64,000 bases of DNA. Origin: Bdellovibrionales bacterium (lineage in GTDB: Bacteria; Bdellovibrionota; Bdellovibrionia; Bdellovibrionales; UBA1609). This document shows positions 26,832-61,193 of this stretch, piece by piece (position 1 is the first letter of the stretch; every line of letters starts with the position of its first letter). The stretch covers positions 1-64,000 of the forward strand of contig DAIDIG010000006.1 in NCBI GenBank assembly GCA_027459485.1. The letters are read 5' to 3'. The translations under genes and the position numbers were made by a program. The notes under the pieces are model-generated. The model did not search any database and was not told the DNA's origin. It saw nothing but the letters and a program-made list of their open reading frames with translations.

Positions 26832-27038
26832 ATGAGAAATCTCAAAACGATATTCGATTTCATCATCGAGGATGAATCCGGCCAAGGCGCGACTGAATAT
26901 ATTCTTCTTGTTGTCGTAGTCGTTGCGATTGTGTTCGTTTTCAAGCAGCAGATTATGGGATTTATCAATCAGAAGATGCAAGATATCCAGAACGGCATGG
27001 GCCAAATCACAACTGGGGCTGGCGGCTCGGGCGGATAA
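26832..27038 (+). CDS. flp: Flp-type IVb major pilin
   Basis: 68 residues, the normal Flp size. DESGQGATEYILLVVVVVAI contains the class III signal (cleavage after Gly or Gln before A-T-E-Y, with the essential Glu+5 and Tyr+6). A ~40-residue tail follows, ending TTGAGGSGG, giving a very short mature pilin. AGAGGGGG lies before the ATG. It is followed by a GCGCAAA/TTTGCGC hairpin before the rest of the Tad operon, a typical way to make pilin more abundant than the machinery. Confidence 0.93.
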   Translation: MRNLKTIFDFIIEDESGQGATEYILLVVVVVAIVFVFKQQIMGFINQKMQDIQNGMGQITTGAGGSGG

Positions 27039-27103
27039 ATTGAGTTTGGTCGCATCGGCCAGGCTGACGAGTCCGAAAAGTTGCGCATCCTCCTCTAACG
27101 AAA

Positions 27104-27120
27104 GCGCAAACAATTTGCGC
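27104..27120 (+). other. Intercistronic hairpin after flp
   Basis: GCGCAAA-CAA-TTTGCGC, a perfect 7-bp stem with 3-nt loop, not followed by a T-run (GGGGG follows). More likely an mRNA-stabilising or attenuating stem than a terminator; it lies just before the next start codon (27132). Confidence 0.5.
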
Positions 27121-27131
27121 GGGGGTGCCGA

Positions 27132-27350
27132 ATGACAACTGAATACGTACTCATCTTGGCGCTGTACGCCTTTATTTTACTTGGGGCTTTTATACCGGGC
27201 CCCATTCAAACCTTTCAAACTTCCGGACCGCGACTGACCGGTCAGATTGAAAAAGAAATTTCAGTTGGGGGAGCGCCACTCCCGCAAGGCCAGACATTTT
27301 GGAACGCGCTTCAGGTCCAATGGCAAGACCCATCTCAAGGGGGCCCATAA
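27132..27350 (+). CDS. Small Tad-locus protein, single membrane helix
   Basis: 72 residues beginning MTTEYVLILALYAFILLGAF. The TTEY followed by a hydrophobic helix mimics the post-cleavage N-terminus of a class III pilin, but without the basic leader. The remainder is a soluble 45-residue tail (FWNALQVQWQDPSQGGP). It may be a pilin-like subunit that needs no processing. Its stop overlaps the prepilin peptidase start by 1 nt (TAATG). Family not recognised. Confidence 0.65.
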   Translation: MTTEYVLILALYAFILLGAFIPGPIQTFQTSGPRLTGQIEKEISVGGAPLPQGQTFWNALQVQWQDPSQGGP

Positions 27351-27868
27351 TGGGGTTTTTCGCAAACGGCGCACTCGCCACAATCGTGCCGAGCATTATT
27401 CTACTCGGCGGCCTCGTCACGGATTTGCGCATGCATAAGATCATGAACCGCTGGGTGGCGGTGTCGATCATTCTTGCACTCGTCAACGCGTACTTGTTTT
27501 ACAGTTGGTCGGGCCTCGAACAAGGTGCCATTGCCGGTGCCATCGTGCTCGTGGTGATGGTGCCGCTCGTTTTGATCGGCGCCCTGGGCGCGGGCGACAT
27601 GAAGCTCTTGTTCGCATTTGCGCTCACGTCGACCTATCAAGAGGTTTTCTCGGTTTTCGTTTTTTCTATTATTTGGGGAGGGCTCATCGGTCTCGGCATG
27701 GCCATTTACCGAGGGCAAGCGAAGCGCCTGCTCGGCAATACTATGAGAATTTTAACTGCCAAACCGCGAGACCCGACGACGTACCACCGCATCCCCTATA
27801 CCGTCGCGCTCGTATTAGGATGGGCGACGTTTTTACTTTTTGGAGTGAGGCAAGGAGGGCTGTTTTGA
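27350..27868 (+). CDS. tadV: Prepilin peptidase TadV/CpaA
   Basis: 172 residues from ATG 27350; the track's 27299 start overlaps the upstream gene without support. Six hydrophobic helices. The two catalytic Asp of A24 aspartyl prepilin peptidases are in VTDLRMHKI and GALGAGDMKLL (GxGD motif). The methylase domain of PilD is absent, as in TadV. It should process Flp and the TadE/F-like proteins. Overlaps the next gene's TTG start. Confidence 0.92.
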   Translation: MGFFANGALATIVPSIILLGGLVTDLRMHKIMNRWVAVSIILALVNAYLFYSWSGLEQGAIAGAIVLVVMVPLVLIGALGAGDMKLLFAFALTSTYQEVFSVFVFSIIWGGLIGLGMAIYRGQAKRLLGNTMRILTAKPRDPTTYHRIPYTVALVLGWATFLLFGVRQGGLF

Positions 27869-28161
27869 CGCGGCGTTGTTACCAAAAAGCGTCTGGCACC
27901 ATCAGCAGCACCAGCGGGCAGGTGAGCGTTGAAGCTGTGTTGATGTTGACCGTGGTGGTCGCGATCGCGCTCGCCGTATCGAATTACGTGAGTAGCAACG
28001 AGTGGTTTGCAAATCTGGTGAGCGGGCCATGGCAAAGTCTCGCGTCCACTATTCAAAACGGCGTGCCCGACGCGAAAGGCGCCGCGGATTCAGCCGCCAT
28101 GCACCCAAACAGTTATTCACGAGTCGTCACGCCGAAACCGGCGAATTGGCAGATCCAATGA
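27865..28161 (+). CDS. TadE-like pseudopilin (98 aa)
   Basis: TTG start at 27865, chosen because AGGAGG lies 7 nt upstream and the stop of tadV overlaps; the track frame extends antisense of this into tadV. SGQVSVEAVLMLTVVVAIAL is a class III prepilin signal (GQ|VSVEA, Glu+5) with its hydrophobic stem; ~60 soluble residues follow, with WFANLVSGPWQSLASTIQNG. Probably a minor pilin of the Tad machine. It overlaps the next gene by 4 nt. Confidence 0.75.
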   Translation: MTRRCYQKASGTISSTSGQVSVEAVLMLTVVVAIALAVSNYVSSNEWFANLVSGPWQSLASTIQNGVPDAKGAADSAAMHPNSYSRVVTPKPANWQIQ

Positions 28162-28850
28162 AAACAATCACGCGTACTCTTAACAACAATCGCGGTTCAC
28201 TCACGGTCGACTACATGTTCGCGCTTGTTCTTGTGATCGGGTTTTGTCTCGTCATCATGGCGTTTTCGACAACACTCGTGACAGTTGAAGTCGTTCAGTA
28301 CGCGGCTTATGCGGGGGCGCGCCGATATTTTGCCGGTAACTTGTGCGACGGAGAGCAAACACGGTGCGCGGATTCACAGCAAGCGGCCGGCCAAGCGGCC
28401 ATTCAATCGGTTCTATCAAACTCTGTCATCGCGCCGCTCGTGCAAAACGGCTGGTTTACAATCGGCGATAACAGTGGGCCCTTTTACGTGGGTCAAAACG
28501 TGGCGAGCGCTTACCCCTCCTTCGGCCAAGCGGCGTCTCTGTCGCAACCGTATCATGATACGTTCGATGGCGCGGTCATTCCGTTTCAGGCTAATATTTT
28601 GGCATTTCAAATCCCGGGGTTTGGTCAAACCATAAAAGCCAACTACGCGGGCAACAAGGGCGGCGGCTTTACCGTCGACATCAATTCGTTTCTTGGCCGC
28701 GAGCCGACATTCGATGAGTGCAAATCATTTTGGGATAATCGCTGGCAACAGATCCAAAAACTGAATTCCAGTTATGGCCAGGCCGGTTCTACAGGAGTGC
28801 TGGGGGGCAGTACGACCCAAGCCGTCGAGGTGATCGACAATGGCTGCTAA
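28158..28850 (+). CDS. TadE/TadF-like pseudopilin (230 aa)
   Basis: ATG 28158 overlaps the previous stop (ATGA). NNRGSLTVDYMFALVLVIGF is a variant prepilin signal (G|SLTVDY, Asp in place of Glu+5) followed by a membrane stem. VEVVQYAAYAGARRYFAG is the conserved TadE motif (YAAYAGAR). The mature domain has four Cys (NLCDGEQTRCAD; FDECKS; DNGC at the terminus), probably disulfide-bonded. The track start at 28002 has no support. Confidence 0.8.
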   Translation: MKTITRTLNNNRGSLTVDYMFALVLVIGFCLVIMAFSTTLVTVEVVQYAAYAGARRYFAGNLCDGEQTRCADSQQAAGQAAIQSVLSNSVIAPLVQNGWFTIGDNSGPFYVGQNVASAYPSFGQAASLSQPYHDTFDGAVIPFQANILAFQIPGFGQTIKANYAGNKGGGFTVDINSFLGREPTFDECKSFWDNRWQQIQKLNSSYGQAGSTGVLGGSTTQAVEVIDNGC

Positions 28851-29373
28851 GACGAATCGCGCAAAACGCATAAAAAATGATCGCGGCTCGGTGATGGTCG
28901 AAACCATACCGCTTCTTGCCATTTTTGTTGTTCTCCTTGGCTTTGGTATTGGATTTTTCGGCGTCATCCACACCGCGATAATGAATTCGATGGCGAGTCG
29001 AACGTACGCATTTGAGACATTTCGCAATCGCTCTGACCTTACAATTTTTCGTGATGCTGACATTTCAGTCTCAGACAATGTTCAATATCAGCCGCAGGTT
29101 GGCGCGCGGTTTCACACTGTTGACGATGAACGTGTGGACCCTAGCTCCAGCCCCGGCGAATTCGGCACCGCACGCGACATCACGTTCTTCCCGCTAGCGG
29201 GGGCGCCTCAGGCTTCGGGGTCTGGCGGATCTTCGTCGAGTCAAGTCGTCGCTCACAACTCAGGAATTTTTTCTGATTCGCCGACAAATCATACGTTAGC
29301 AGTTTCACCTGCCTGGGTCATGGTCGGCTATGGAATTTGCCTCAATGCCACGTGTGGCGATGGGGGGCCGTAA
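28840..29373 (+). CDS. TadE/TadF-like pseudopilin (177 aa)
   Basis: A basic leader MAAKTNRAKRIKNDRGSVMV then ETIPLLAIFVVLLGFGIGFF: a class III-type signal (RGSVMVET) and stem. MNSMASRTYAFETFRNR resembles the TadF region after the stem. The rest is soluble, Ser/Gly/Pro-rich, ending in a Cys pair (GICLNATCGDGGP). It overlaps the preceding gene by 11 nt. Confidence 0.75.
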   Translation: MAAKTNRAKRIKNDRGSVMVETIPLLAIFVVLLGFGIGFFGVIHTAIMNSMASRTYAFETFRNRSDLTIFRDADISVSDNVQYQPQVGARFHTVDDERVDPSSSPGEFGTARDITFFPLAGAPQASGSGGSSSSQVVAHNSGIFSDSPTNHTLAVSPAWVMVGYGICLNATCGDGGP

Positions 29374-29400
29374 GGTGAACACGCTTTCGGGGGCGAGAAC

Positions 29401-30291
29401 ATGAACCACAACGAAACGCGCACACTTTGGATATCCGTGGCGGCGGCACTCTTTGCCGTGTTCCTGCTTTACAGTTACACGAACGAGCGCAACACCGAGC
29501 TCGCGCAAAAATTCGCCGCCAGCCGAAGCGTCGTGGTCGCGAAAGCCAATATCGACCAAATGGAAACGATCGACGCGAGTAAACTCGAGGTCAAAGCGAT
29601 CCCGATGGATTTCATTCAACCCGATGCTTTGTCACAACCCGAGCAAGCCGTCGGGATGGTCGCTCTCGCGCCGATAAAGGCCGGCGAGCAGATTCTGCAG
29701 ACTAAAATTTTAGAGCCGGGCCCGGTGACCGGTCTGTCTCTGCAAGTGACGCCGCAAAAAAGAGCCGTGAGCATCCCGATCGACGCGGTTCACGGCGTTT
29801 CGAAACTGCTCAAACCGGGTGATCGTATCGATGTTATCGCAGCCGTCGATGTCGGGCACGGCGCGCAGGCGCACAAAGAAGTGCGCACGATCTTGCAAGA
29901 TGTGCCGGTGCTTGCGACCGGTCTTCGCATCATCAACGAACTCCCGCGATTGTTTGAACAAATCGGCAAGCAAGGTTTTTTTCGCAACGTTCAAGGCGAC
30001 ACGAAATTCAGCACGATTACGGTTGAGGTGACTCCGCAAGACGCGCAAAAGCTCATTTACATTTTGGCCACTTCGCCGGGCTCTTTGTTTTTAACACTGA
30101 GGCACCCCACCGACACGACAGAAGCTGTTTTGACTAACACAACAGTTGACGCGGTTCTCGATCGGGTGGACCCGTCTCTCTTATCGAACACGGTGCGTAC
30201 GCCAGCATCGATTCCGCAAATGGCACCGCCGCCTCAAAAGCCGGTGCCCAGACGTAAGCGGCGTCGCCACGGAGGGTTTGTTAACTTATGA
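29401..30291 (+). CDS. cpaB: Flp pilus assembly protein CpaB/RcpC
   Basis: 296 residues: an N-terminal membrane helix (about 10-26), an SAF domain (VVVAKANIDQMETIDASKLE, GMVALAPIKAGEQILQTKI) and the RcpC domain (KRAVSIPIDAVHGVSKLLKP, GDRIDVIAAVDVG). The C-terminus is basic (PRRKRRRHGG). CpaB is a periplasmic partner of the Tad secretin. It overlaps cpaC by 4 nt. Confidence 0.9.
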   Translation: MNHNETRTLWISVAAALFAVFLLYSYTNERNTELAQKFAASRSVVVAKANIDQMETIDASKLEVKAIPMDFIQPDALSQPEQAVGMVALAPIKAGEQILQTKILEPGPVTGLSLQVTPQKRAVSIPIDAVHGVSKLLKPGDRIDVIAAVDVGHGAQAHKEVRTILQDVPVLATGLRIINELPRLFEQIGKQGFFRNVQGDTKFSTITVEVTPQDAQKLIYILATSPGSLFLTLRHPTDTTEAVLTNTTVDAVLDRVDPSLLSNTVRTPASIPQMAPPPQKPVPRRKRRRHGGFVNL

Positions 30292-31745
30292 AAAAATTGA
30301 TTTTTCTCGGATTAGCATTTTTACTTGCTGTGCCGGCACGGGCGCATCAGCTTAAGAACATTCCGCTTTCGGTCGGGATTATTCACGACGAGACGCTCCC
30401 CGATATGCCCGACAAATTTAAGATCACCGGGACGTACAAGCCGTATGTGCGGCTCGAGTACAATGGTATTACCAAAACCCTTCGGTTTATACCGAAACGG
30501 CCGGGCTTCGGCACACTCGAGATTTTAGACCGAAAAACGCGATTGCCGGCTTATCGTTTTACCGTCGATGTTCGGCAAACCGATCTCAAACGAGTCGCCC
30601 GTGAAATAAAAGGTCTGCTCAATCAAATTGAAGGCATCACGATCACAGTCATCAACCACAAAGTGGTTGTGGATGGGCAAATTCTCTTGCCGGCGGATAT
30701 GGAGCGCATTCACGACGTCGTCAAACAATACGGTGGCCTGGCGACATCGCTTGTGCGATTAAGCCCCGAAGCGCAAGTGAAAATCGCGCAGTTCATCGAG
30801 CGCGCGATCAACGACCCCGAGATTCACGTGAAGGCCGTTAACGGCAAATACCTTCTCGAGGGTGTGGCGCAAGATCAAAAAGAGAAGGACCGGGCTGAAA
30901 TCTTGGCCAAGACCTACGTGCCCGACGTGATTGTGGATGAAGCGGTTGCCGACAAAAAAGTTCAACAGCGGGTGAGTGAAGTTGTCATCAATCTCATAAC
31001 AGTAAAACCGCCACCTACGCCGGAGCCGGCTAAAACGATTCAAATTGTTGTTCACTATGTCGAGCTGCAAAAAGATTACACAAAAGGTTTTCGCTTTCAG
31101 TGGACACCTAACATTGGCGATAACTCCGGCATTAATTTTACGACGGGTCAAGGTACACCGTCGGGTATGGGCACGGTGATTTCAGGCACAATTACAAATT
31201 TAATTCCGAAGCTCAACTGGGCGAAAGAGCACGGTCACGCGCGCGTGCTCGAATCAACGAGTGTCATTGTTGAGGATGGTCGCCCGGGCACATTGAACTC
31301 CATCGAGAACGTGCCGTATCAAGTGGTCACAGCCGAAGGTTTACCGTCGACAAGCTTCGTGCCGGTCGGCATCAATACGACCGTAACCCCATCGGTGATC
31401 GGCCCGGAGTCTGATAGCGTGAATCTCAAGCTTAAGTTTTCAGTCTCGGCGCTCGTGAGTAACACGGCGGCGGGGCCGATGACGTCGCAGAATGAAGTGG
31501 ATACAGTTGTCGTGGTCAGAAGTGGGCAGAGTGCTGCAATCGGCGGTCTTATCACCTCGCATTCGGATACGGCCTACAACCGCGAGCCGGCGGACGCGAG
31601 CACGAACCCGATACTTTCGCTTTATGCCTCGAAAGATTTTAATAAAAACCAAAGTCAGTTCGTTGTCTTTGTCACGCCGGTCATTAAGACGTCGGCGAGT
31701 GCAGGCGCGAGCGCGATCAAACGCAAATTTCGATTGCGAGAATAG
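30288..31745 (+). CDS. cpaC: Tad outer-membrane secretin CpaC/RcpA
   Basis: 485 residues: signal peptide MKKLIFLGLAFLLAVPARAH, an N-terminal beta domain, BON-type repeats (IEGITITVINHKVVVDGQIL; IHVKAVNGKYLLEGVAQDQK) and the secretin barrel (VHYVELQKDYTKGFRFQWTP; ARVLESTSVIVEDGRPGTLN; VVVRSGQSAAIGGLITS), ending in VVFVTPVI. It forms the ring through which the Flp pilus leaves the cell. No lipobox. Confidence 0.92.
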   Translation: MKKLIFLGLAFLLAVPARAHQLKNIPLSVGIIHDETLPDMPDKFKITGTYKPYVRLEYNGITKTLRFIPKRPGFGTLEILDRKTRLPAYRFTVDVRQTDLKRVAREIKGLLNQIEGITITVINHKVVVDGQILLPADMERIHDVVKQYGGLATSLVRLSPEAQVKIAQFIERAINDPEIHVKAVNGKYLLEGVAQDQKEKDRAEILAKTYVPDVIVDEAVADKKVQQRVSEVVINLITVKPPPTPEPAKTIQIVVHYVELQKDYTKGFRFQWTPNIGDNSGINFTTGQGTPSGMGTVISGTITNLIPKLNWAKEHGHARVLESTSVIVEDGRPGTLNSIENVPYQVVTAEGLPSTSFVPVGINTTVTPSVIGPESDSVNLKLKFSVSALVSNTAAGPMTSQNEVDTVVVVRSGQSAAIGGLITSHSDTAYNREPADASTNPILSLYASKDFNKNQSQFVVFVTPVIKTSASAGASAIKRKFRLRE

Positions 31746-31754
31746 GCACGCACC

Positions 31755-34037
31755 ATGTCTATTCATGCCAATTGCCACTTTATCACGGTTATCGGCGGCA
31801 AGGGCGGTGTGGGCAAAAGTGTCTTCGCAGCGAACTTGGCGTTTGCGCTTTTCGGCGAACTCCGCGCCAAGGTTTTACTTGTTGATCTCGACGCGCGTTC
31901 GTGCGGCGATCAAAACATCATCACGGGGCTGCGGCCGAAAAAGACTATTGCCGAGGTGGCTAACTTTACGGGAGTGATCTCGCAGCAATCAATCGAAACC
32001 CTGGTCACGCAACACCCGACGGGGCTTCATTATATCGGCGCCGTCATGAGTGCCGATCAAACTCTGAACGTGTCGCCGGCGCTTTTTAAAAAACAAATGG
32101 GTACACTCAGCCAGTATTACAATTTCATCGTTGCGGATCTCGGTAACGACATCGGCGATTTACAAACCGCGGCGCTTGAAGACGCCAGTGCAATTCTTAC
32201 GCTCACCACTCCTGAAGTCCTAGCTGTCAATCAAACGAAACGTCTTATGCATGATTTGACCGCAAAAACCGTACCGCAAGAATTTTTTCAGCTCGTCGTG
32301 AATAACGTCGGTCGCACCGGGCTTGATCCGCGTCTCATTTCGCAATCGCTCAATCGTCCTGTGCAGGCGCTCATCCCGCAAGACGATGTCACAGTCTATG
32401 CGTCGGTTCAGCGGTCGACTCCATTCGTAGTGTCGTCGCCGCAAACGCCTGTGGCGCAGGCGTACTTTGACCTCGTTCGTCGTTTGACGGGCGGCATTTT
32501 ACAAAAGCTCAAAACTCTTTCAAAGCCGAAGAGCATTCATTCAACGAGCAGTGGCTCGACCGCGGCAGTCACCCCGGCCGTAGACATGTCGAAAGTTCGC
32601 GCCCTGAAATCGAAGCAACGCGAGATATCGCCGCTTGGCCATTTAAAGTTACAAGTTCACTCGGCCCTTATTCGCGAAATGGATCTCAAAAAAGATTTAA
32701 GCGGAACTCAAGGCGACCCCGTTAAAGAACAAGAGCTTCGAAGCAAAACTCAAAAAGCGATTTCACAAATCGTCGATCGTATCGGCGGTTCGCTCAGCCG
32801 TGACGAACGGGGTGCGGTGATCAAACAGGTGCTCGATGAGGCGCTCGGCCTTGGCCCTCTCGAGGAGTTACTGGCTGACCCGACCGTGACGGAAATCATG
32901 GTGAACGGCTCGGAGCGAATTTATATAGAAAAAAGCGGGCGCCTTCAAATTTCACCGGTCACGTTTACTTCAAACTTGCAGCTGAGAAACGTCATCGAGC
33001 GAATTGTCACCCCTCTCGGTCGGCGTATCGATGAGAAAACACCTTACTGCGACGCACGTTTGCAAGACGGTAGCCGCGTGAACGCCGTGATCGAGCCGCT
33101 GTCGATCGACGGGCCGGCGCTGACGATTCGTAAATTCCCGAGCGAGCGCATCACAATGGAAGACTACGTTCAAAGATTTCAATCGCTCACGCAACCAATG
33201 GCCGACTTCTTGAAAGTCTGCGTTGAAGAAGGTCTCAATATCATCATATCGGGCGGGACGGGCACCGGTAAAACTACTCTGCTCAATGTGCTCTCGGGTT
33301 TCATCCCGACGACAGAGCGAATTGTCACAATCGAAGACGCGGCCGAACTTCAACTCAAGCAAGATCACGTTGTGAGACTCGAAACCCGCCCCGCCAATAT
33401 GGAAGGCTCGGGCGAAATCACAATTCGGGACCTTGTGCGAAACTCGCTTCGTATGCGACCCGATCGCATCGTTGTTGGCGAGTGCCGCGACGGCGCCGCG
33501 CTCGACATGCTGCAGGCGATGAATACTGGTCACGATGGGTCGATGACGACGGTGCACGCCAATACTCCTCGTGAAGCGACCTCTCGCCTCGAAACATTGT
33601 GCCTGATGGCGGGGATGGATCTGCCCGCCAAAGCGATTCGCGATCAAATCGGCTCAGCAATAAATCTGATTGTGCAAATCACGCGCTATTCGGACGGCAG
33701 CCGTAAAATTTCGAGCATCACTGAAGTGGTGGGCATGATGGGTGAAGCGATGACCCTGCAAGAAATCTTCCGTTTTAAAGATGAAGGCTTTGACAAAAAC
33801 CGCCGTGTCGTCGGGCAATTTCAAGCGATGGGTCTCATCCCGACCTTTATTGAAAAATTTGAAAGCCGTGGCATTACAATCCCGCGCAATTTATTTACGA
33901 CGAGCGGATCGGCACCGGCCAAGCCAGCCACTGTCAAGACCGCCGCTGCACCGATCGGCAGCTCGAAACCGGCTGCCACCGCGAAGCCTGCCGCTGCGGC
34001 GCCTGTCAAAAAAGCGAGCGGAGGCGATAACCGATGA
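31755..34037 (+). CDS. Fused TadZ (CpaE, ParA-like) and TadA (CpaF, secretion ATPase)
   Basis: 760 residues. Residues 1 to ~265 are a ParA/MinD-type ATPase with deviant Walker [24 protein letters not shown] and [12 protein letters not shown]; no receiver domain precedes it. Then comes a ~40-residue linker ([15 protein letters not shown]) and a complete CpaF domain: [20 protein letters not shown], Walker [13 protein letters not shown] (about residue 500), Asp box [12 protein letters not shown], Walker [16 protein letters not shown], His box [18 protein letters not shown]. It ends in an Ala/Pro/Lys tail. TadZ positions the pilus and TadA powers it; normally they are separate genes. No stop or frameshift lies between the parts. 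Confidence 0.93.
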
Positions 34038-34921
34038 GCATCATGCAGTTACTGTTCGGCAATCAAGTCGCCGTTATCATCTGGGTAGGGGCAATCGTAT
34101 TCTTTCTTTCATATCTTTATTCAGAAAAGATAATTCGTTTTTTTTATGCGCGCACGCTCGGCCAACGTGAAGAGCTTTTTCTAATACTCGATAAAATGTA
34201 CGTCGACACCGACCGCCGAAAGCTCATGATATCAATCGTATTGATTAGTTTTGGCGCTGGGCTCGTATTTTTTCTCGCATTTTGGCCCAACGTCATCCCC
34301 GGCCTATTGTTTGGCACAGTCGCGACGCTCGCGGGTTGGTCTGCTCCGAAATTGATATTAAAAGGGATGTGGGAGAAGCGCTGCAACCGCATCGTCGATC
34401 AGATGGTCGACGGCATGACCATTATGGCCAACAGCATCGGCGCGGGCTTGAGTGTGCCACAAGCGATGGAGCGGGTGACCGAAAATATGTCGGGTCCGCT
34501 CACGCAAGAGTTCACGCTCGCTCTCAATCAGATGCGCCTCGGCCGGTCGGTCGAAGAAGCGCTCAATGAATTCGGCGATCGCATCCCGCGGCCGGATGTG
34601 CAAATGTTTGTGTCGGGTGTAAATATCCTGAAAGAAACCGGCGGTAATTTGGCCGAGACCTTCGCCACCATAACTGTGACGATCCGCGAGCGTCAAAAAA
34701 TCGAGCGCCGAATCGAAGCCATGACCTCGCAGAGTATCTGGCAGGCGATTATTGTGACGTGCGTGCCGTTCGGGTTGCTTCTTATGTTTTTGATGGGTGA
34801 CCCGACCTTTGTCATGCCGCTCTTCACCCGGCCTTTGGGCTGGCTGGCCCTGTTCTTTATGCTTGGTCTGCAAGCGATGGGTGGCCTCCTCATGAAAAAG
34901 ATTGTTACAATCAAAGTGTAG
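34034..34921 (+). CDS. tadB: Tad inner-membrane platform protein TadB
   Basis: 295 residues: two N-terminal membrane segments, the T2SF domain (VDQMVDGMTIMANSIGAGLS, VPQAMERVTENMSGPLTQEF, LNQMRLGRSVEEALNEFG) and terminal membrane helices. It should interact with the TadA half of the upstream fusion (4-nt overlap). No tadC or tadD follows; the next gene is the RHS-like protein. Confidence 0.9.
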   Translation: MSIMQLLFGNQVAVIIWVGAIVFFLSYLYSEKIIRFFYARTLGQREELFLILDKMYVDTDRRKLMISIVLISFGAGLVFFLAFWPNVIPGLLFGTVATLAGWSAPKLILKGMWEKRCNRIVDQMVDGMTIMANSIGAGLSVPQAMERVTENMSGPLTQEFTLALNQMRLGRSVEEALNEFGDRIPRPDVQMFVSGVNILKETGGNLAETFATITVTIRERQKIERRIEAMTSQSIWQAIIVTCVPFGLLLMFLMGDPTFVMPLFTRPLGWLALFFMLGLQAMGGLLMKKIVTIKV

Positions 34922-34980
34922 CGGGGCGAACGTTCGACGCCACGCAAGTTTGGTACGTAATTGCCGCAAGGGAGTGCGCA

Positions 34981-36666
34981 ATGAGAATTTGCCGTTTTCT
35001 TTGTCTCGCGTTGGGTCTGACCTTTCTCGCGTTGCCCGCGTATTCGCTCATCGATATGCGAAACGCCAACTTTTCTGAATCGTGGCAGACGATGGAGTCA
35101 CCTTCAACTGGCTTTGATCTTCGTATTTACCTCACATACAACAGCCGTGCTCTCTATAACGGTATTTTCGGTATGGGTTGGTGTACGGATTACGAGACCA
35201 CCCTGCGAGTGTCCGTCGACAACACCCTTCGCGTCACAGATTGCGGCGCGGGCAGCGAGACAAAATTCATTAATGCGCACGACGTGAATTCTAAATCGAA
35301 CAACAGCGTCGAATCAATCATGGCCGCCGTACGGCGCCGCAACCGCGACAAAGACGAAAGTTATTTTGAAGGGATCGAAAAGCAACTTCGTCTCGATCCG
35401 GATTTACGCGACGAAATGGCCAAACAACTGCACATGGCGCTGAAAATCGATCGCGGCGTGAGATATTTAGCCGAGGGCCGGGCTGATGATTCGATTGTTT
35501 TCAACGGCCACGAGTACGTGCGCACGCTCGCCGACGGCGGCACACAAACTTTTGATAATGACGGGCACCTCATTCGATTGGGCGACCGCAACGGCAATTT
35601 CGTAAAAATAAATCGCCAGCGAAACAGAATCGTCAATGTGATAGACAACACGGGGAATTCACTTCAGTTTCATTACTGGCCCAATTCGCAGTACGTCAGT
35701 ATGGTCACGGGCCCGCATGGGATGCGCTCGAGCTATAAAATGAAAGGTGAAGATCTGATCGAAGCGATCGATAGCCACGGCAAAGCCTATCACTTCGAGT
35801 ACAACAATTATTACAATATGACGAAGGCGACTTATCCCGACGGGACTTACACCGAGATGTCTTACAACAACGACAAAGATTGGATCATGAGTTTTCGTGA
35901 CCGCCGCGGTTGCTTAGAAAAATATGCTTATGATGTGAACCCTGCAAATGTCGACCACTACGGTTCAAGTGTTGTAAAAACCTGCCATGGCGTCGTCACG
36001 AATCGAAGTAAATTCGAATTCTGGTACGCAAAATCTCAAAACGGCGGCCGATACTTGGCGCAAACATTAGCCGTCGTGAACGGGCATTCGACGCTGACCA
36101 AATATCACGAACTGTTCGGGCGACCGACTGAAATTAAACAAGATGGTCAAGTGACTCAGTTCGCCTATTTCTCTGACGGCCAACTTAAATCCAAGTCGAC
36201 GGGCAACATTGTTCAGTCCTACCTGTACGCTGACAGTTGCCACAAATTGTCAGAAACAGTCGCGCGAATAAATGAACGTGAACCGAGCAGCGGGCGCACG
36301 CAAACCAAAGTCATCACTACGAAGTTTTTCTATGATTCGCACCGATGCAATTTGAACATCGTGAAAAACTCCGAAGGGCAATATGCCAAATTGACTTGGG
36401 ATTTCATGGGCCGAATTAAAACAATTGAAGATCAGTCGAGAAAAAAATTGATCTTAACTTACGACAGTCGCTTTCCGGGCAAACCATCCGTCATCACACG
36501 CCCTGGTCTCGGCAGTGTTCGATTTAAGTACAACAACGACGGCTCCATCGATCGGTTAGAGGCCGGTAAGACTGCCGATCCGCTTGCTGAATATCAAGTC
36601 GCCAATATGTTCAGCAATCTCATGCAGCTCATTCAACCGGCGACAGCGGATATTACAAGTATATGA
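34981..36666 (+). CDS. RHS/YD-repeat exported protein (Bdellovibrio Bd0109-like, hit locus)
   Basis: 561 residues with signal peptide MRICRFLCLALGLTFLALPA. ESPSTGFDLRIYLTYNSRAL then FGMGWCTDYETTL is the RHS N-terminal signature; YD-type repeats follow (GHLIRLGDRNGNFVKINRQR; YHFEYNNYYNMTKATYPDGT; YNNDGSIDRLEAG). There is no C-terminal toxin domain, so this is a short RHS shell. Position at the end of a Tad operon and 4-nt overlap with a ~105-residue secreted protein match the Bdellovibrio host-interaction locus as I remember it (Bd0109, wall-associated). Identity is by architecture and context only. Confidence 0.8.
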   Translation: MRICRFLCLALGLTFLALPAYSLIDMRNANFSESWQTMESPSTGFDLRIYLTYNSRALYNGIFGMGWCTDYETTLRVSVDNTLRVTDCGAGSETKFINAHDVNSKSNNSVESIMAAVRRRNRDKDESYFEGIEKQLRLDPDLRDEMAKQLHMALKIDRGVRYLAEGRADDSIVFNGHEYVRTLADGGTQTFDNDGHLIRLGDRNGNFVKINRQRNRIVNVIDNTGNSLQFHYWPNSQYVSMVTGPHGMRSSYKMKGEDLIEAIDSHGKAYHFEYNNYYNMTKATYPDGTYTEMSYNNDKDWIMSFRDRRGCLEKYAYDVNPANVDHYGSSVVKTCHGVVTNRSKFEFWYAKSQNGGRYLAQTLAVVNGHSTLTKYHELFGRPTEIKQDGQVTQFAYFSDGQLKSKSTGNIVQSYLYADSCHKLSETVARINEREPSSGRTQTKVITTKFFYDSHRCNLNIVKNSEGQYAKLTWDFMGRIKTIEDQSRKKLILTYDSRFPGKPSVITRPGLGSVRFKYNNDGSIDRLEAGKTADPLAEYQVANMFSNLMQLIQPATADITSI

Positions 36667-36980
36667 TCCGCTTAAAGCGCAGTTTAATTCTAACGAGCTT
36701 CATCGCCTGCAGCCTCTTGCCGGTCGCTGTGCAGGCCGGCTCAACCCAGTCTCAAAATGAGACACATAAAGCTTCGCCGACAGAAGCGGCCACTTCAGCC
36801 AAGATGGTCGACGGCTGCGTATCGGGCTGCCAGGCGGCTATAGCGCCTCGCGGGAGCCTATTTAAACAGTCAACAGTACCAGTCGTAGTACTGGCGCGAG
36901 AATACCTCGGTGGCCGGGCCGATTTGTGTTCGACAGCTGTCAAAGGTTTAGCTAAAGGCCCAGTCGGGCAGTGCCGATAA
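36663..36980 (+). CDS. Small secreted hit-locus-like protein (Bd0108-type)
   Basis: 105 residues. MIRLKRSLILTSFIACSLLP VAVQAG is a signal peptide; the mature ~80 residues are hydrophilic with four Cys (DGCVSGCQAA; DLCSTAV; GQCR), likely two disulfides. It overlaps the RHS-like gene by 4 nt, so the two are co-translated. In B. bacteriovorus the corresponding small exported protein (about 100 aa, Bd0108) modulates pili, and its mutations permit prey-independent growth. I infer orthology from size, signal peptide, order and overlap; sequence identity could not be tested. Confidence 0.7.
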   Translation: MIRLKRSLILTSFIACSLLPVAVQAGSTQSQNETHKASPTEAATSAKMVDGCVSGCQAAIAPRGSLFKQSTVPVVVLAREYLGGRADLCSTAVKGLAKGPVGQCR

Positions 36981-37074
36981 GTAATTGAAATCACTCGATC
37001 ATGCGGCTGAGCCATAGGTCGTTTGATTGGCACCGGGTTCGCATTAAAGAATGGTTGTAAGGAGAAACGATATT

Positions 37075-37227
37075 ATGAAAACACTAGCTATGTTCTTTGC
37101 ATTTGCAGTTCTGGCATTGGCGGCGGCACAGGCGAGCGCTTGCCCGAATAGTAGTTCGAGCATTTTCGCGAACACGACACCTGTCAGCGGTCAAACGACA
37201 ACCGGTGGCCGTTCGATAACACGATAA
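37075..37227 (+). CDS. 50-residue secreted peptide downstream of the hit-like pair
   Basis: Too short for the ORF track. AAGGAG 8-9 nt before ATG 37075. The product starts MKTLAMFFAFAVLALAAAQA with ASA as cleavage site, leaving about 27 residues (CPNSSSSIFANTTPVSGQTT, then a basic end GGRSITR). If lipidated, the Cys right after ASA would be the site, but ASAC is an imperfect lipobox. It lies 94 nt after the Bd0108-like gene on the same strand. Confidence 0.7.
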   Translation: MKTLAMFFAFAVLALAAAQASACPNSSSSIFANTTPVSGQTTTGGRSITR

Positions 37228-37236
37228 ATAGTCGGG

Positions 37237-37470
37237 TTATTGCTCGCGGGCCCGACGGGCTGAGCGAGACGTCCAAAGATTGCCCCAGACGTTACGAAGC
37301 AAATGGGCGGCACCGCGAGCTGTTTCGTTGAGTGGTTTGACTAAAGACGCCGATGTCAATGCACGCATCGTGTGTCGCTCGATTGTTTGATCACCCCATT
37401 TTATTTGCATAACTAAAATCACGGCGATCGTGACAAGCGTTGTCTTGATAACAAAGCTGATAGCTTCCAT
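37237..37470 (-). CDS. Small membrane protein (77 aa)
   Basis: MEAISFVIKTTLVTIAVILV forms one N-terminal membrane helix; the rest is a basic, probably cytoplasmic or periplasmic amphipathic tail (HLLRNVWGNLWTSRSARRAR). GGAGGG 8 nt before the ATG supports translation. It follows the response regulator by 3 nt and is probably co-transcribed with it. No family recognised. Confidence 0.6.
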   Translation of the reverse strand: MEAISFVIKTTLVTIAVILVMQIKWGDQTIERHTMRALTSASLVKPLNETARGAAHLLRNVWGNLWTSRSARRAREQ

Positions 37471-37473
37471 TTT

Positions 37474-37866
37474 TCATGCCCTCCTTTGGCGCAATTCTTG
37501 TGGTTTGGCTACAGCCGCTCGAAGTACTTTCTTCAGTGACTCGGCGGTAAATGGTTTAGTTAAAAAATTACAGCAACCGGCATCGATGGCCTGAATCATA
37601 AGGCCCTCGTGGCCTTCAGTTGAACATGCGATAATTTGTGCGGGCGAATTTTTATTCGAGAGTTCCATTGCCACATCGATACCGTTTTTCTTCGGTAACA
37701 CGAGATCCAAAATCACGACATCTGGTTCGCAGCGCGAGATGACCTGAAGGGCTTCTTCACCGTCAGCCGCCTCGCCGACACATTCGAAATCGGTGTCTTT
37801 CAAGAGCGATTTTATCGCCTCACGGATAAACGCTGCATCATCAACGATAACGAGTTTGAATCTCAT
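37474..37866 (-). CDS. Single-domain (CheY-like) response regulator
   Basis: 130 residues from ATG 37866; the track's upstream start is inside the divergent gene. Receiver residues are all present: acidic pair in VIVDDAAF, phospho-acceptor D54 in VVILDLVLPKKNG, Ser in IACSTEG, Lys in FLTKPF. No output domain, so it acts by protein contact, as CheY or in a phosphorelay. A TATAAT box lies 7 nt before the ATG with no Shine-Dalgarno. The cognate kinase is unknown. Confidence 0.88.
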   Translation of the reverse strand: MRFKLVIVDDAAFIREAIKSLLKDTDFECVGEAADGEEALQVISRCEPDVVILDLVLPKKNGIDVAMELSNKNSPAQIIACSTEGHEGLMIQAIDAGCCNFLTKPFTAESLKKVLRAAVAKPQELRQRRA

Positions 37867-37872
37867 AATATG

Positions 37873-37881
37873 TATTATACT
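37873..37881. promoter_or_regulatory. Overlapping divergent -10 elements (response regulator / DedA gene)
   Basis: TATTATACT reads TATACT (37876-37881) on the plus strand for the DedA gene and TATAAT (37879-37874) on the minus strand for the regulator. The two start codons are only 28 bp apart, so the two transcription complexes should exclude each other. -35 elements are weak on both strands. Confidence 0.45.
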
Positions 37882-37894
37882 CTGGGCACTCGCT

Positions 37895-38575
37895 GTGGAG
37901 CACGCCAAATTCACCATCAAACTCATTACCTTTCTTTCAGGCCTGTCGGGGTTCAGGGCCTACGTCTTGATTTTCGGCGTGCTTGCATCGTGTGGTCTGG
38001 GTGTGCCCATACCTGAAGACGTCACTCTTATCTCGGCTGGGGTCCTGGCTGCGCTCGGGAGCATTCACCTGCCCGGCGCCATTCTAGTTTGCGTGGTCGG
38101 GGTCATGATTGGTGACGCGTTCTTATTTTTTCTCGGCCGCAGGTTCGGCTATCGCGTATTTAAATTGCCGATCTTTCGATCGATCTTTACCGAAAGTCGA
38201 ATTCAAATTGCGCGACAGAAAGTTTTGCACAATTCAAAGTTCATTTGTTTTACAACGCGATTTTTACCGGGCCTGCGAGCCCCGATTTTTCTCACGGCCG
38301 GCATCATGGGCGTCCGCCCTCGATCTTTTTTACTTCTCGATGGCAGCGCCGCGCTCATCAGCGTGCCGATTTGGCTCTATGTAGGCTGGTTTTTCGGCAG
38401 CAATTTAGATCAAGCCCTGAACATCGCCATCCGTATGCAACGTTACTTGGTTGCCGGCGTGTTGGTGTTGTTTGCGCTTTACGTGTGGTTCAAGTCGTGG
38501 GAGGCCAAACGAGAGCGCAAGATTTTGGAGCAATCAGATAAGCCGCCGATCCCGAGTGAAATCGAAGGCGAGTAG
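37895..38575 (+). CDS. DedA-family (SNARE-associated/VTT domain) membrane protein
   Basis: GTG 37895 gives ~226 residues; the track start at 37793 lies within the divergent regulator gene. FGVLASCGLGVPIPEDVTLI, GDAFLFFLGRRFGYRVF and RFLPGLRAPIFLTAGIMG are core DedA/VTT motifs, including the re-entrant loop Glu and the Arg-x-x-Pro-G-x-R block. DedA proteins are implicated in lipid-carrier (undecaprenyl phosphate) or phospholipid flipping. About five membrane segments; a charged C-terminal tail. Confidence 0.88.
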   Translation: MEHAKFTIKLITFLSGLSGFRAYVLIFGVLASCGLGVPIPEDVTLISAGVLAALGSIHLPGAILVCVVGVMIGDAFLFFLGRRFGYRVFKLPIFRSIFTESRIQIARQKVLHNSKFICFTTRFLPGLRAPIFLTAGIMGVRPRSFLLLDGSAALISVPIWLYVGWFFGSNLDQALNIAIRMQRYLVAGVLVLFALYVWFKSWEAKRERKILEQSDKPPIPSEIEGE

Positions 38576-38597
38576 ATAACGTTCCGCTCACTTAAGC

Positions 38598-39716
38598 TTA
38601 ACCGCCCCACGTAAAGCCAATCGAAAAGATCGTCGTACTCGTCGATACGTCGACGCCGGTTGGCGTGGCGCCGGTGACTGGATCCAACGCGCTGGCCGTT
38701 CCTGCGTAGATAGACTTATCGTAGCGCTCGGTGAGCTTCCAAAAAACTTCGTAACTTCGGTCGAGCATGAATTCCTGACCGAAGCCGAATTTCACGGCGT
38801 AGGCCGAGGGACTGCTGCCGCTTGAAACGGAGACACCTGTTGTGTGCTCGGAGACATTGAGCTTCGGTAATATGTCCGAGCTTAAAATCCAGGCGCGCGT
38901 CGGGGTAATCGGATATTTCATCAGAATGCCAAGATCAATACCCGACATTTCGATACCAATTCGATTGGGGTCACTTTTTGCAACGTTCATCTGATAATCG
39001 TTGTAACCCAAACTGAAAGTTAAGCTCGGCGATTTGCGCGAATCAGACATGTAGGCGCGATAACTAAGGGCGGCGTTAAATATTTGGGTCGTCGCTTCAG
39101 TCGGTTGACTGCCTGATGGTGAATCTTCGATATCGCCGCCAAGTGAAGTGAAGTAGTTGAAGTTTAGCCCCAAGTTTGGGTTGAACCAGAAGTCAGCTTT
39201 GGCGTCGATCGATGGCCCGCTTGAAAAGTAGCGGCGGTACCAGTAATTACTGGCGGCGCCGGCGTAGAAAACTCCGGGGGCAATCGTTAAATCGGCAATG
39301 TTGTAGCGCGAGTCTTCGGGATACACACCGGGCGGCAACGGCGAATACCAATGAGGGGGCGTCAGCTGGGGTGATGCCGGTTGTGCGACGACGGATGCTG
39401 CGGCCTGTGACTGGGCTGCAGCGACTGGCGGTGTAGGCGCCGGTGCAGTTACAGTTTTGGCCGGTGCCTTCGCCTGTGCTTGCGCCTGCGCAGCCGCTGA
39501 CGCTGCTGGGGCCTGCTGTGCCGCCTCAACGCGCCGACGTGTTTGAGCTTGAGGCCGAGTCACATACCGACTTGAGTCGAGGCCTGAGTCTTCAGATTCG
39601 CTAGAGTGAAGAAGTAACGACGTGGCCGGATCTATTTGGGCAGCGGCTTTCAACGAATAACTCGCAAGTCCGCAAATAATGGCGATTAGGAAATACCGGG
39701 CAAAGTGACTTTTCAC
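38598..39716 (-). CDS. Predicted outer-membrane beta-barrel protein with Ala/Gln-rich N-terminal linker
   Basis: 372 residues, GTG start. MKSHFARYFLIAIICGLASY is a signal peptide, followed by a ~80-residue Ala/Gln/Pro-rich low-complexity stretch. Residues ~150-372 are alternating amphipathic strands (FYAGAASNYWYRRYFSSGPS; ADFWFNPNLGLNFNYF; LTFSLGYNDYQMNVAKSD), closing with IFSIGFTWGG, which places a Phe/Trp near the terminus as expected of barrels. It is related to the barrel of the divergent gene at 39778 (GIDLGILMKYPI versus EIGVSGWYPI). Confidence 0.7.
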   Translation of the reverse strand: MKSHFARYFLIAIICGLASYSLKAAAQIDPATSLLLHSSESEDSGLDSSRYVTRPQAQTRRRVEAAQQAPAASAAAQAQAQAKAPAKTVTAPAPTPPVAAAQSQAAASVVAQPASPQLTPPHWYSPLPPGVYPEDSRYNIADLTIAPGVFYAGAASNYWYRRYFSSGPSIDAKADFWFNPNLGLNFNYFTSLGGDIEDSPSGSQPTEATTQIFNAALSYRAYMSDSRKSPSLTFSLGYNDYQMNVAKSDPNRIGIEMSGIDLGILMKYPITPTRAWILSSDILPKLNVSEHTTGVSVSSGSSPSAYAVKFGFGQEFMLDRSYEVFWKLTERYDKSIYAGTASALDPVTGATPTGVDVSTSTTIFSIGFTWGG

Positions 39717-39777
39717 GAAAGCCGTTTCGGAATTTTTGCCGCTTGTCTTGACCGCGATTGATCGCGAGAATCAAATT

Positions 39778-41340
39778 ATGCGAGCAATTTCGCTTACGAC
39801 CATCGTCTTGGTAGCCCTGGCAGGTATTTCAGTCAGAGCGTGGGCGCAAGATCAATCGAACTATCGCAGCGACGTCGACTCGGCGCTCACAGTTCGCTCT
39901 ATCGCGCTTTTGCCCGTATTCGACAACTTGCAGGGTGTTTACTCTCGCCCAGTTGAAAAAGACCTGACAAAAATTCTTCAGAATTCTCATCACTTCAATT
40001 ACATCGATGCGAATTATGCCGGGCCCATCACGACTCCCGACGAACTTGAAGAAGATTCTTCATCGGTGCAAAAAATATTTTCGAATTTCTCGGCCGACGC
40101 ATTCGTCGCAGTCAGTATTTCAAAAGGCCCTGCTGGCATCAGTATGAAGATGGATATGTTCCTTAAAAGCGACCAGAGCTTGATCGCTCAAGTCGCGGAC
40201 TCGAACATACAAGCATTTGACACGGTTTCAATCGAGCATAGGGCCGAGAAAATGTTGCGCGAGCTGCTCAAGAAGCTCCCATACAGCGGGCTCATATTGA
40301 GTCGCGAGGGCACGCGCGTCACCGTCAATCTCGGCAGCCTTGATGGAGTAAAACCGAACGAAGTGCTTTCGGTGATCGAAATCATCAAAGTGAAGCGGCA
40401 CCCGAAATTTGGGTTTCTTGTCGGCTCAGACAAAGAAATCATCGGGCAAGTCCGCCTTTTAAAAGTTGATCAAACTTTGAGCTTCGGTCGCATTGCGGAT
40501 GAAGTCGAAGCCGGCGCCATTCAGGTCAATTCTAAAATCGCCCCGATTGAGGCCGTCGTTTATACCAACACCAATTCACTTTCAAATCTTCAAACACCCG
40601 AAGATCTGCTGATGTCTGAACCAGGCGCCAAAGCTAATTACGGCAAGAATCCGTCGGCGTGGGTGCCGACGCGTGTGCCGACCTTCGGCATGGTGGGCGC
40701 GCGCATCGGCGTCGGCAAGTTCACTGAAAACGCGCCCAATTCACTGAATGATTCCGACTCGTTTTACCCATCGATTTATTTAGACGGGGAACTCTGGCTC
40801 ACGTCGGTATGGAGTGCGCACGCGCACATTGAACAAGGCATCATTTCAACGAGTAACCCCGTATCGGGCGGGTCACCTTCGACTTTGTCACACCGGCTTT
40901 CAATGTACGATTTTTTGTTGGGTTATAATGTGCGATTGGCCGATGTGACCAATGCGCCGAAATTTGAATTTTTATTTGGTTACAGCTCGTACGATATGTT
41001 CGTCGATCAATCGACTCCGGCGGGTATCACTTCGAAAACCTATTCAGGCCCGGAGATCGGCGTTTCGGGCTGGTACCCCATTGCGCCGAGTTCGCCGTAT
41101 GGTCTTGGCGCCAATTTTTACTACATGATTTCGCCGAATTTGAGCGAGACGCCGTCATCGTCGGGTTCATCAAGTAACCGCGCCACACAGTTTGGCGTAT
41201 TTTTAGATAAGCAACTGCACGTCAATCTGAAGGCCCGCTTCGAACTCGATTTCGACATTTTCGCCAGCAATTTTTCGGGTGGATCAACTTCCAGCCAAGA
41301 ATCCGACGTTTTTTCTGGCGGTCTTTACTACATGTTCTAG
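39778..41340 (+). CDS. Exported two-domain protein: periplasmic domain plus C-terminal outer-membrane barrel
   Basis: From ATG 39778 (520 residues) there is a signal peptide MRAISLTTIVLVALAGISVR then AWAQ; the track's TTG start adds 14 residues. Residues ~30-280 form a soluble domain (VRSIALLPVFDNLQGVYSRP; DAFVAVSISKGPAGISMKMD; NLGSLDGVKPNEVLSVIEII) resembling exported 'LpoB/CsgG-like' nucleotide-free folds, tentatively. Residues ~310-520 are a beta-barrel (MYDFLLGYNVRLAD; FEFLFGYSSYDMFVDQ) ending YYMF, an outer-membrane insertion C-terminus. Divergent from a related barrel gene. Confidence 0.68.
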   Translation: MRAISLTTIVLVALAGISVRAWAQDQSNYRSDVDSALTVRSIALLPVFDNLQGVYSRPVEKDLTKILQNSHHFNYIDANYAGPITTPDELEEDSSSVQKIFSNFSADAFVAVSISKGPAGISMKMDMFLKSDQSLIAQVADSNIQAFDTVSIEHRAEKMLRELLKKLPYSGLILSREGTRVTVNLGSLDGVKPNEVLSVIEIIKVKRHPKFGFLVGSDKEIIGQVRLLKVDQTLSFGRIADEVEAGAIQVNSKIAPIEAVVYTNTNSLSNLQTPEDLLMSEPGAKANYGKNPSAWVPTRVPTFGMVGARIGVGKFTENAPNSLNDSDSFYPSIYLDGELWLTSVWSAHAHIEQGIISTSNPVSGGSPSTLSHRLSMYDFLLGYNVRLADVTNAPKFEFLFGYSSYDMFVDQSTPAGITSKTYSGPEIGVSGWYPIAPSSPYGLGANFYYMISPNLSETPSSSGSSSNRATQFGVFLDKQLHVNLKARFELDFDIFASNFSGGSTSSQESDVFSGGLYYMF

Positions 41341-41371
41341 AGCCCTCTGACCTGTCGGCGGGCATTAGAAA

Positions 41372-41399
41372 TAAAAAGGGCCGCCAAACGGCAGCCCTT
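41372..41399 (-). terminator. groEL intrinsic terminator
   Basis: On the minus strand AAGGGCTGCC-GTTT-GGCGGCCCTT is followed by TTTATTT. It lies 28 bp after the groL stop and could also stop transcripts of the convergent gene. Confidence 0.8.
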
Positions 41400-41426
41400 C
41401 GCTCGAACTTAAATTTTAGTATCTGA

Positions 41427-43389
<1,963 letters not shown>

Positions 43390-43448
43390 AAAATGAACCT
43401 CCTGGGTTTCGTTTATTGGAACCATAAAAATATGTTAAAGCGCCAATC

Positions 43449-60445: not shown

Positions 60446-61102
60446 TTACCTTTTGATTAAACAAAGCTCCGGATCAAATGAGGTGGATCCGTCACTGCAT
60501 GTGGTTAGCCGGTGCTTTTGGTAAGCAAGTACTCCCGCGCCGGTTCCGTAGCCGAGCAGGCTGCCTAACAATCCAAGAGCTGTTGCGGCCGATTCGTCAA
60601 CGAAGACACCCATGCCGACGAAGTAAGCGATGACTGCCCCGCCGGCGGCAAATTCAATTTTGAGCAAGCGATCGTGCGCTTTGCCATTTCGTGCCTTTTG
60701 CATACGCTCGTGAGCATCAAACTCAAACTTCTTCGCGCGATTATATTGAGCAATCGTTAAGCGAGTAAAGTGTGTGGCGGCCGGTACGATCTCGGCTTTT
60801 GCCTGCAAAGTGTTCGGTTGATCAAAAAAAGCATGAAGCAGGCTTTGCTCAGGCACAGCCGCCGAACCAAAAATCACGTAAACTTGAAGCTTTTGAGCGA
60901 ACCCTTCGACATCGTAAAACTGTTCGCGGCACGTCTCGCGATTATTATGAGCTAAACAAAGAGCCTTCTGATGGTCGAGTAACGTCGCGAAGTTGACGGA
61001 TCCAATTTGTGAAGGTCCATTGGGTTGTGCCATAACTAGCGAAGAAGTCGCCGTCGTAGTTGCAACCGCGAGAGCAATGAATAAATAAATAGTTTTCTTC
61101 AT
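60446..61102 (-). CDS. Exported protein of unknown function (~218 aa)
   Basis: From ATG 61102 (the track's start adds 16 residues), MKKTIYLFIALAVATTTATS SLVMAQ is a signal peptide. The mature part is helical with four Cys (LCLAHNNRETCRE; LTTCSDG; ELCLIKR). A Gly/Ala-rich hydrophobic hairpin (AAGGAVIAYFVGMGVFV; ALGLLGSLLGYGTGAGVLAY) resembles glycine-zipper segments that insert in membranes. No family recognised. Confidence 0.65.
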   Translation of the reverse strand: MKKTIYLFIALAVATTTATSSLVMAQPNGPSQIGSVNFATLLDHQKALCLAHNNRETCREQFYDVEGFAQKLQVYVIFGSAAVPEQSLLHAFFDQPNTLQAKAEIVPAATHFTRLTIAQYNRAKKFEFDAHERMQKARNGKAHDRLLKIEFAAGGAVIAYFVGMGVFVDESAATALGLLGSLLGYGTGAGVLAYQKHRLTTCSDGSTSFDPELCLIKR

Positions 61103-61193
61103 AAGAGAAAATGCCTCCGTCGTCATTGCAGAGTGCAACCGCTGTGCCATATTTATACAATTGAGAAATGGGCGCCGTGCTTATCGTGCTGAA

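Follow-up and report, generated by a model that had tools for sequence, protein, structure and literature searches.

Introduction

The closest known counterpart of the locus analysed here is the host-interaction (hit) locus of Bdellovibrio bacteriovorus HD100, in which bd0108 and bd0109 adjoin the Tad-pilus cluster bd0110-bd0119. Bd0108 is a disordered protein (PMC4267844) that binds Bd0109; bd0108 mutants grow without prey, loss of Bd0108 leaves the cell with fewer pili, and a 42-bp deletion in its gene leaves it with more (PMC3818213, PMC4267844). Attempts to delete Bd0109 failed in both growth modes, and a 261-bp RNA from the locus (96455-96716), described as a non-coding sRNA, is reported to be raised in bd0108 mutants (PMC3818213). 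The route from Bd0108/Bd0109 to the predator's growth mode is a long-standing question, and the sRNA was earlier proposed as a possible link between them.

Two further descriptions bear on the locus analysed here. In B. exovorus JSS, A11Q_2375 and A11Q_2207/2208 have been considered as hit candidates, with a published preference for the copy that is not Tad-linked (PMC4267844). A 2023 survey, in those sections consulted here, describes short genes for exported proteins, in groups of two or three, next to homologs of Bd0103/Bd0109 in MAGs of the Bdellovibrionales, UBA1609 among them (PMC10469934).

Results and Discussion

A probable hit locus closing a Tad-pilus operon

The window, the whole 64,000-nucleotide stretch of DNA that we analysed, comes from a 2.75-Mb assembly that is 99.8% complete (Table 1). 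We infer that the genome belongs to the order Bdellovibrionales, the order of B. bacteriovorus, and to the GTDB family UBA1609, which puts it inside Bdellovibrionota, as a hit-locus reading would have it. The MAG UBA1609 is presumably a member of the same family, and we take the MAGs RBG_16_40_8 and VK3_bin-0444 to be the closest relatives with names. The comparison genomes from the same order are taken to be B. bacteriovorus HD100, Tiberius and B. exovorus JSS; the identity of HD100 is backed by exact matches of published primers and by a match to the NCBIfam model hit_Bd0108 (E=1.9e-29).

Positions 26832-43425 of the window are collinear with HD100 106344-90797. The shared order runs from the Flp pilins through CpaB, the secretin, TadZ-TadA, TadB and the RHS gene to a small gene and a third gene (these last two by position), and continues with a small membrane protein, a CheY-like protein, two more genes, groEL and groES. 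The pilins are named from their position and from the published annotation of bd0118/bd0119. The block differs from HD100 in carrying an inserted DedA-like gene (37793-38575), whose best HD100 match lies elsewhere (74102-74776).

Table 1. Features of the window and of its hit-locus block.
Feature	Position	Strand	Basis or counterpart
Window source: Bdellovibrionales bacterium GCA_027459485.1, contig DAIDIG010000006.1	1-64,000	forward	
Two Flp-type pilin ORFs, start of Tad cluster	26832-27038, 27132-27350	+	BLAST to collinear HD100 106156-106344, 105911-106105
CpaB/RcpC, secretin, fused TadZ-TadA ATPase, TadB	29401-34921	+	Pfam; 47-59% identity to collinear HD100 genes
TadB	34034-34921	+	Directly precedes RHS/YD gene
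RHS/YD-repeat exported protein, Bd0109 ortholog	34981-36666	+	Pfam, BLAST
Exported Cys-containing small protein at the bd0108 position, overlapping the RHS ORF by ATGA	36663-36980	+	
Conserved upstream element TAAGTANNTGAAATNAC	36978-36994	+	
Sigma54-type promoter (predicted) TGGCACCGGGTTCGCA (GG-N10-GC)	37028-37043	+	
Third hit-locus gene, 50-aa exported peptide, one mature Cys	37075-37227	+	Counterpart of HD100 complement(96483..96683)
Small membrane protein	37237-37470	-	Syntenic with HD100 96125-96385; 33% identity, 7e-9
CheY-like receiver protein	37474-37926	-	Syntenic with HD100 95746-96138; 43% identity, 3e-30
groEL, groES	41427-43058, 43081-43425	-	79% and 74% identity to HD100; end of syntenic block

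The original prediction, that a Tad operon ends here in an RHS/YD gene with groESL nearby, agrees with this order, and the synteny extends through groESL. Synteny to groESL, Bd0109 orthology and a genome from the same order as B. bacteriovorus together make the block very probably the hit locus of this member of the Bdellovibrionales, located where its Tad-pilus operon ends. It contains a Bd0109 ortholog with a small exported gene directly downstream, and it closes a Tad operon in synteny with groESL, as do a Tiberius-like (L165) and a JSS-like (L164) locus. The suggested likeness to bd0109-bd0108 stands for synteny, Bd0109 orthology and placement; for the small gene the match to Bd0108 is only marginal.

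A phylum-wide RHS protein of Bd0109 type

The RHS/YD protein has 561 residues and a signal peptide, matches Pfam RHS_repeat (1.1e-6) and DUF6531 (2.3e-6), and is 36.7% identical to Bd0109 over its full length (E=4e-130). Four of its cysteines (C68, C88, C311, C335) are invariant. A structural model built with 36 homologs (pLDDT 86) predicts a mainly beta protein with a conserved C-terminal helix. Among PDB entries, those related to it in sequence and fold are T6SS Rhs proteins, teneurins and Tc components. The repeat fold is shared with T6SS Rhs effectors and teneurins, but the window protein is about half as long, is Tad-linked, and has no toxin domain detectable by Pfam, as had been predicted. 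The description of an "RHS shell" holds for the fold and is generous for the rest, as 561 residues make about half a closed cocoon.

An RHS protein with a small ORF downstream, and many T6SS Rhs effectors among its PDB sequence relatives, could also suggest a toxin-immunity pair for contact-dependent killing. We consider this very improbable: besides the lack of a Pfam toxin domain, both proteins have signal peptides, the C-terminal helix is conserved at similar length across the order, and the RHS gene is a core, operon-linked gene in most of the phylum.

RHS homologs occur in 39 of 40 relatives, and Bd0109-type RHS genes in 281 of 290 Bdellovibrionota genomes. Judged by this distribution of sequences, the gene is a core gene of the phylum and not a predator marker, and the locus by itself therefore proves neither predation nor a growth switch. 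The claims that it makes this genome a predator's, and that it localises a growth-mode switch, do not follow from the locus alone. Bd0109-type RHS genes were also found on contigs titled Streptomyces griseus and Alphaproteobacteria (L110, L159), which are probably mis-titled records.

The small cysteine protein at the bd0108 position

The small protein is 105 residues long and begins with a signal sequence; of its five cysteines, four (C52, C56, C90, C104) fall in the mature part. Its ORF overlaps the RHS ORF by ATGA; in HD100 a 15-nt gap separates the two genes. The predicted coupling, export, size and four cysteines are all borne out, if the cysteines are counted outside the signal sequence. 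Of 113 loci that could be assessed, 102 have a small exported ORF immediately after the RHS gene, and the arrangement is therefore not due to chance. The mature cysteine count is even and non-zero in 72 of 80 dereplicated small proteins, and 49 of the 80 have two cysteines separated by no more than three residues, against 17 expected from shuffles. In one genome (G006, locus L041) the small Cys protein is present as two tandem, clearly related copies after the RHS gene.

Aligning the pair with HD100 gave a full-length match to Bd0109 and a marginal similarity to Bd0108. BLAST found no match between the window's small protein and Bd0108, and the protein falls below the curated cut-off of the NCBIfam model hit_Bd0108 (NF053838), whose best match in the whole window genome (E=0.14) lies at another place than the locus. 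Bd0108 proper exceeds that cut-off in 21 of 139 genomes of the order, all in the genus Bdellovibrio. Against a profile made from the small proteins of Bdellovibrio and its relatives the window protein scores 8.3 bits, a score that 9 of 4000 shuffles reach (p about 0.002), and hhalign gives P=0.037. The alignment places the window's NE...SPTEAATSA...C-x3-C on the Bd0108 core, so that the two share PTEA...C-x(2,3)-C. HD100 Bd0108 has a CxxC core and two mature cysteines, whereas the window protein has CxxxC and four. AlphaFold predicts the window protein to be mostly unstructured (pLDDT 57.7), with two short helices only, a predicted likeness to the disordered Bd0108.

The best reading of these sequence comparisons is that the small gene is a fast-evolving positional ortholog of bd0108. 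An unrelated exported gene may have replaced bd0108 in place, as the missing BLAST match, the hhalign value and the unmatched NCBIfam model would allow; this is unlikely, given that 102 of the 113 assessable loci have a small exported ORF in this place, the shared core and the rarity with which shuffles reach the profile score.

Short direct repeats able to delete within the small gene had been envisaged. In HD100 bd0108, which served as positive control, the same check recovered the 10-bp repeat at 42 bp that flanks the in-frame deletable segment; in the window gene the longest repeat is 7 bp, which is the level of chance, and such a pair is absent. One bd0108 homolog, on a single 3.0-Mb contig of the genus Bdellovibrio (G041, locus L066), carries a frameshift that stops it after 65 codons, its remainder still recognisable in another frame; the strain may be host-independent, or the frameshift may be an error of sequencing.

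A third exported gene within the published sRNA

In most loci the small gene is followed by yet another short ORF for an exported product, a third gene that the original prediction had not mentioned. It has a Shine-Dalgarno site, a signal peptide and a cysteine that is invariant in the aligned set, and 47 of 54 dereplicated third peptides have exactly one mature cysteine. Against the profile of the Bdellovibrio third gene the window's peptide scores 13.3 bits, which none of 4000 shuffles reaches; in Pfam and NCBIfam it matches no family over the cut-off. Pooled dN/dS is 0.21, from sequence pairs that are not all independent, and four close Bdellovibrio pairs show 45 synonymous and 4 nonsynonymous changes; purifying selection on these codons is seen across the genus Bdellovibrio and in other families. 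The lone cysteine in an exported peptide suggests, on sequence grounds, that the peptide may form an intermolecular disulfide. That the third peptide and the small protein are paralogs was considered as well: the resemblance is suggestive in some species and has no support in the window.

The HD100 counterpart, of 66 aa, lies wholly within the published sRNA, and the RT-PCR primers used for the sRNA map inside it. The published sRNA is therefore probably, at least in part, the mRNA of the third gene. The primer names in the 2013 sRNA paper suggest that its authors read the RNA from the opposite (+) strand. RT-PCR does not usually tell the strand. Among the papers available for searching, none was found to report the HD100 ORF as a gene; new here are the recognition of the third gene as coding, the promoter assigned to it and the clash with its annotation as an sRNA.

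The transcript could instead regulate as an sRNA proper, or have a dual function, and not be a simple mRNA, in keeping with its published description as a non-coding RNA that rises in bd0108 mutants. We think this quite improbable in view of the conserved ORF with its Shine-Dalgarno site, signal peptide, invariant cysteine and codon-level purifying selection across the genus and in other families; a search of Rfam with the window's intergenic region and third-gene copy also returned no family.

A conserved, predicted sigma54-type promoter with an upstream element

About 14-70 bp before the third ORF lies a sigma54-type site, TGGCAY-N5-TYGCW, which takes an N-TGCA variant in the genus Bdellovibrio. 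Sites scoring at least 17 are present in 41 of 54 dereplicated loci, against 0.76 expected by shuffling and none on the reverse strand. The window's site, a predicted promoter, fits the pattern in its GG-N10-GC spacing and its TGGCAY and TYGCW halves, and RpoN is encoded in the same genome and in 19 of the 20 genomes tested. Roughly half of the loci have a second element, TAAGTAnnTGAAATnAC / TAAGTANNTGAAATNAC, 32-33 bp upstream of the site; the window's copy of TAAGTANNTGAAATNAC has no mismatch, and the stop codon of the small gene lies within it. Outside the genus Bdellovibrio (40 loci), all 24 of the upstream elements that score at least 10/14 stand at a gap of 30-34, against 0.15 expected, and within the genus 6 of 23 loci also have the element at this gap. 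Searched as a unit, element and site give 26 matches in 141 genomes of the order and none in the reversed control, and these mostly precede such third-type peptides, some of which are encoded at a distance from the RHS gene. The layout and the sigma54-type site before the third gene also recur, with variation, in several genomes sampled from other classes.

The site of the HD100 third gene, TGGCACACGCGATGCA, has both the GG and the GC. The -12 half of the Bdellovibrio variant (NTGCA) is weaker than the canonical TTGC, the NTGCA-type pattern is not enriched genome-wide in HD100, and a good copy of the upstream element was not found at the HD100 locus. HD100 (G040) also has a perfect palindrome, GTCTCA-N3-TGAGAC, at 25 sites genome-wide (reversed control 0), one of them at 96767-96781, and many Bdellovibrio species (L235-L244) have it a short way upstream of their third-gene promoter; it was dismissed as part of the window promoter, from which it is absent. 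A scan for sigma70-type promoters and terminators gave results near chance.

The two-part promoter also precedes lipoproteins of about 250 aa in a few Bdellovibrio species and one relative (L253, L255, L256, L257, L259), which suggests a shared regulon. Elsewhere in the window, a consensus sigma54-type site, TGGCACAGCGGTTGCA, lies on the minus strand (61134-61149) at the start of the ORF at 60446-61150.

A possible envelope signal

The RHS protein and its small disulfide-bearing partner would most likely act jointly in the envelope beside the Tad machine, where they may govern how pili are assembled or retracted, a role already proposed for Bd0108/Bd0109. A sensor of envelope or pilus state could then act through a sigma54 activator which, from the activator-like site that many genomes, the window's included, have at a fixed distance upstream, would switch on the single-Cys third peptide, presumably transcribed separately. 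The peptide would rise on loss of the Bd0108 partner, and the hit-locus RNA reported in HD100 would be its mRNA. We tentatively propose, on these lines, that the hit locus is a three-protein system, in which the sRNA is the mRNA of a sigma54-driven single-Cys peptide that reports pilus or Bd0108 status and is part of the predation or growth decision across Bdellovibrionota. If the RNA does encode such an exported peptide, an envelope signal replaces RNA signalling in the model, which then has a defined promoter and an activator that can be searched for, and would be directly testable in HD100.

It may also be that the locus is a phylum-wide accessory module for Tad-pilus biogenesis, with a growth switch special to Bdellovibrio and absent in the window organism. 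This seems quite possible given the near-universal RHS gene, a Bd0108 proper confined to the genus Bdellovibrio in the genomes of the order, and a Bd0109 that resists deletion in either growth mode (PMC3818213). However, the genuine HD100 locus has the same anatomy, third gene and promoter included, and the window and HD100 modules are therefore the same; the accessory-module reading departs from the hit-locus reading on physiology only.

Relation to other described loci

The locus itself is of a known type, since the short exported gene arrays near Bd0109 homologs in UBA1609 MAGs, the window's own family, were already noted in the survey sections consulted (PMC10469934). Those sections differ from the present analysis in that they report no promoter and tie no array gene to the published sRNA.

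In B. exovorus JSS, both A11Q_2375 and A11Q_2207/2208 are, as in the window, Bd0109-type RHS genes with small neighbours, but groESL synteny and a sigma54-type third gene are found at the Tad-linked copy only. In the JSS-like genome (L164, L048) the Tad-linked RHS locus combines synteny to groESL with a sigma54-type third gene; in the 13 kb examined around the second RHS locus, none of the window's other genes was found, those for Tad and groESL included. The syntenic hit locus of B. exovorus is the Tad-linked locus, not the copy preferred in print.
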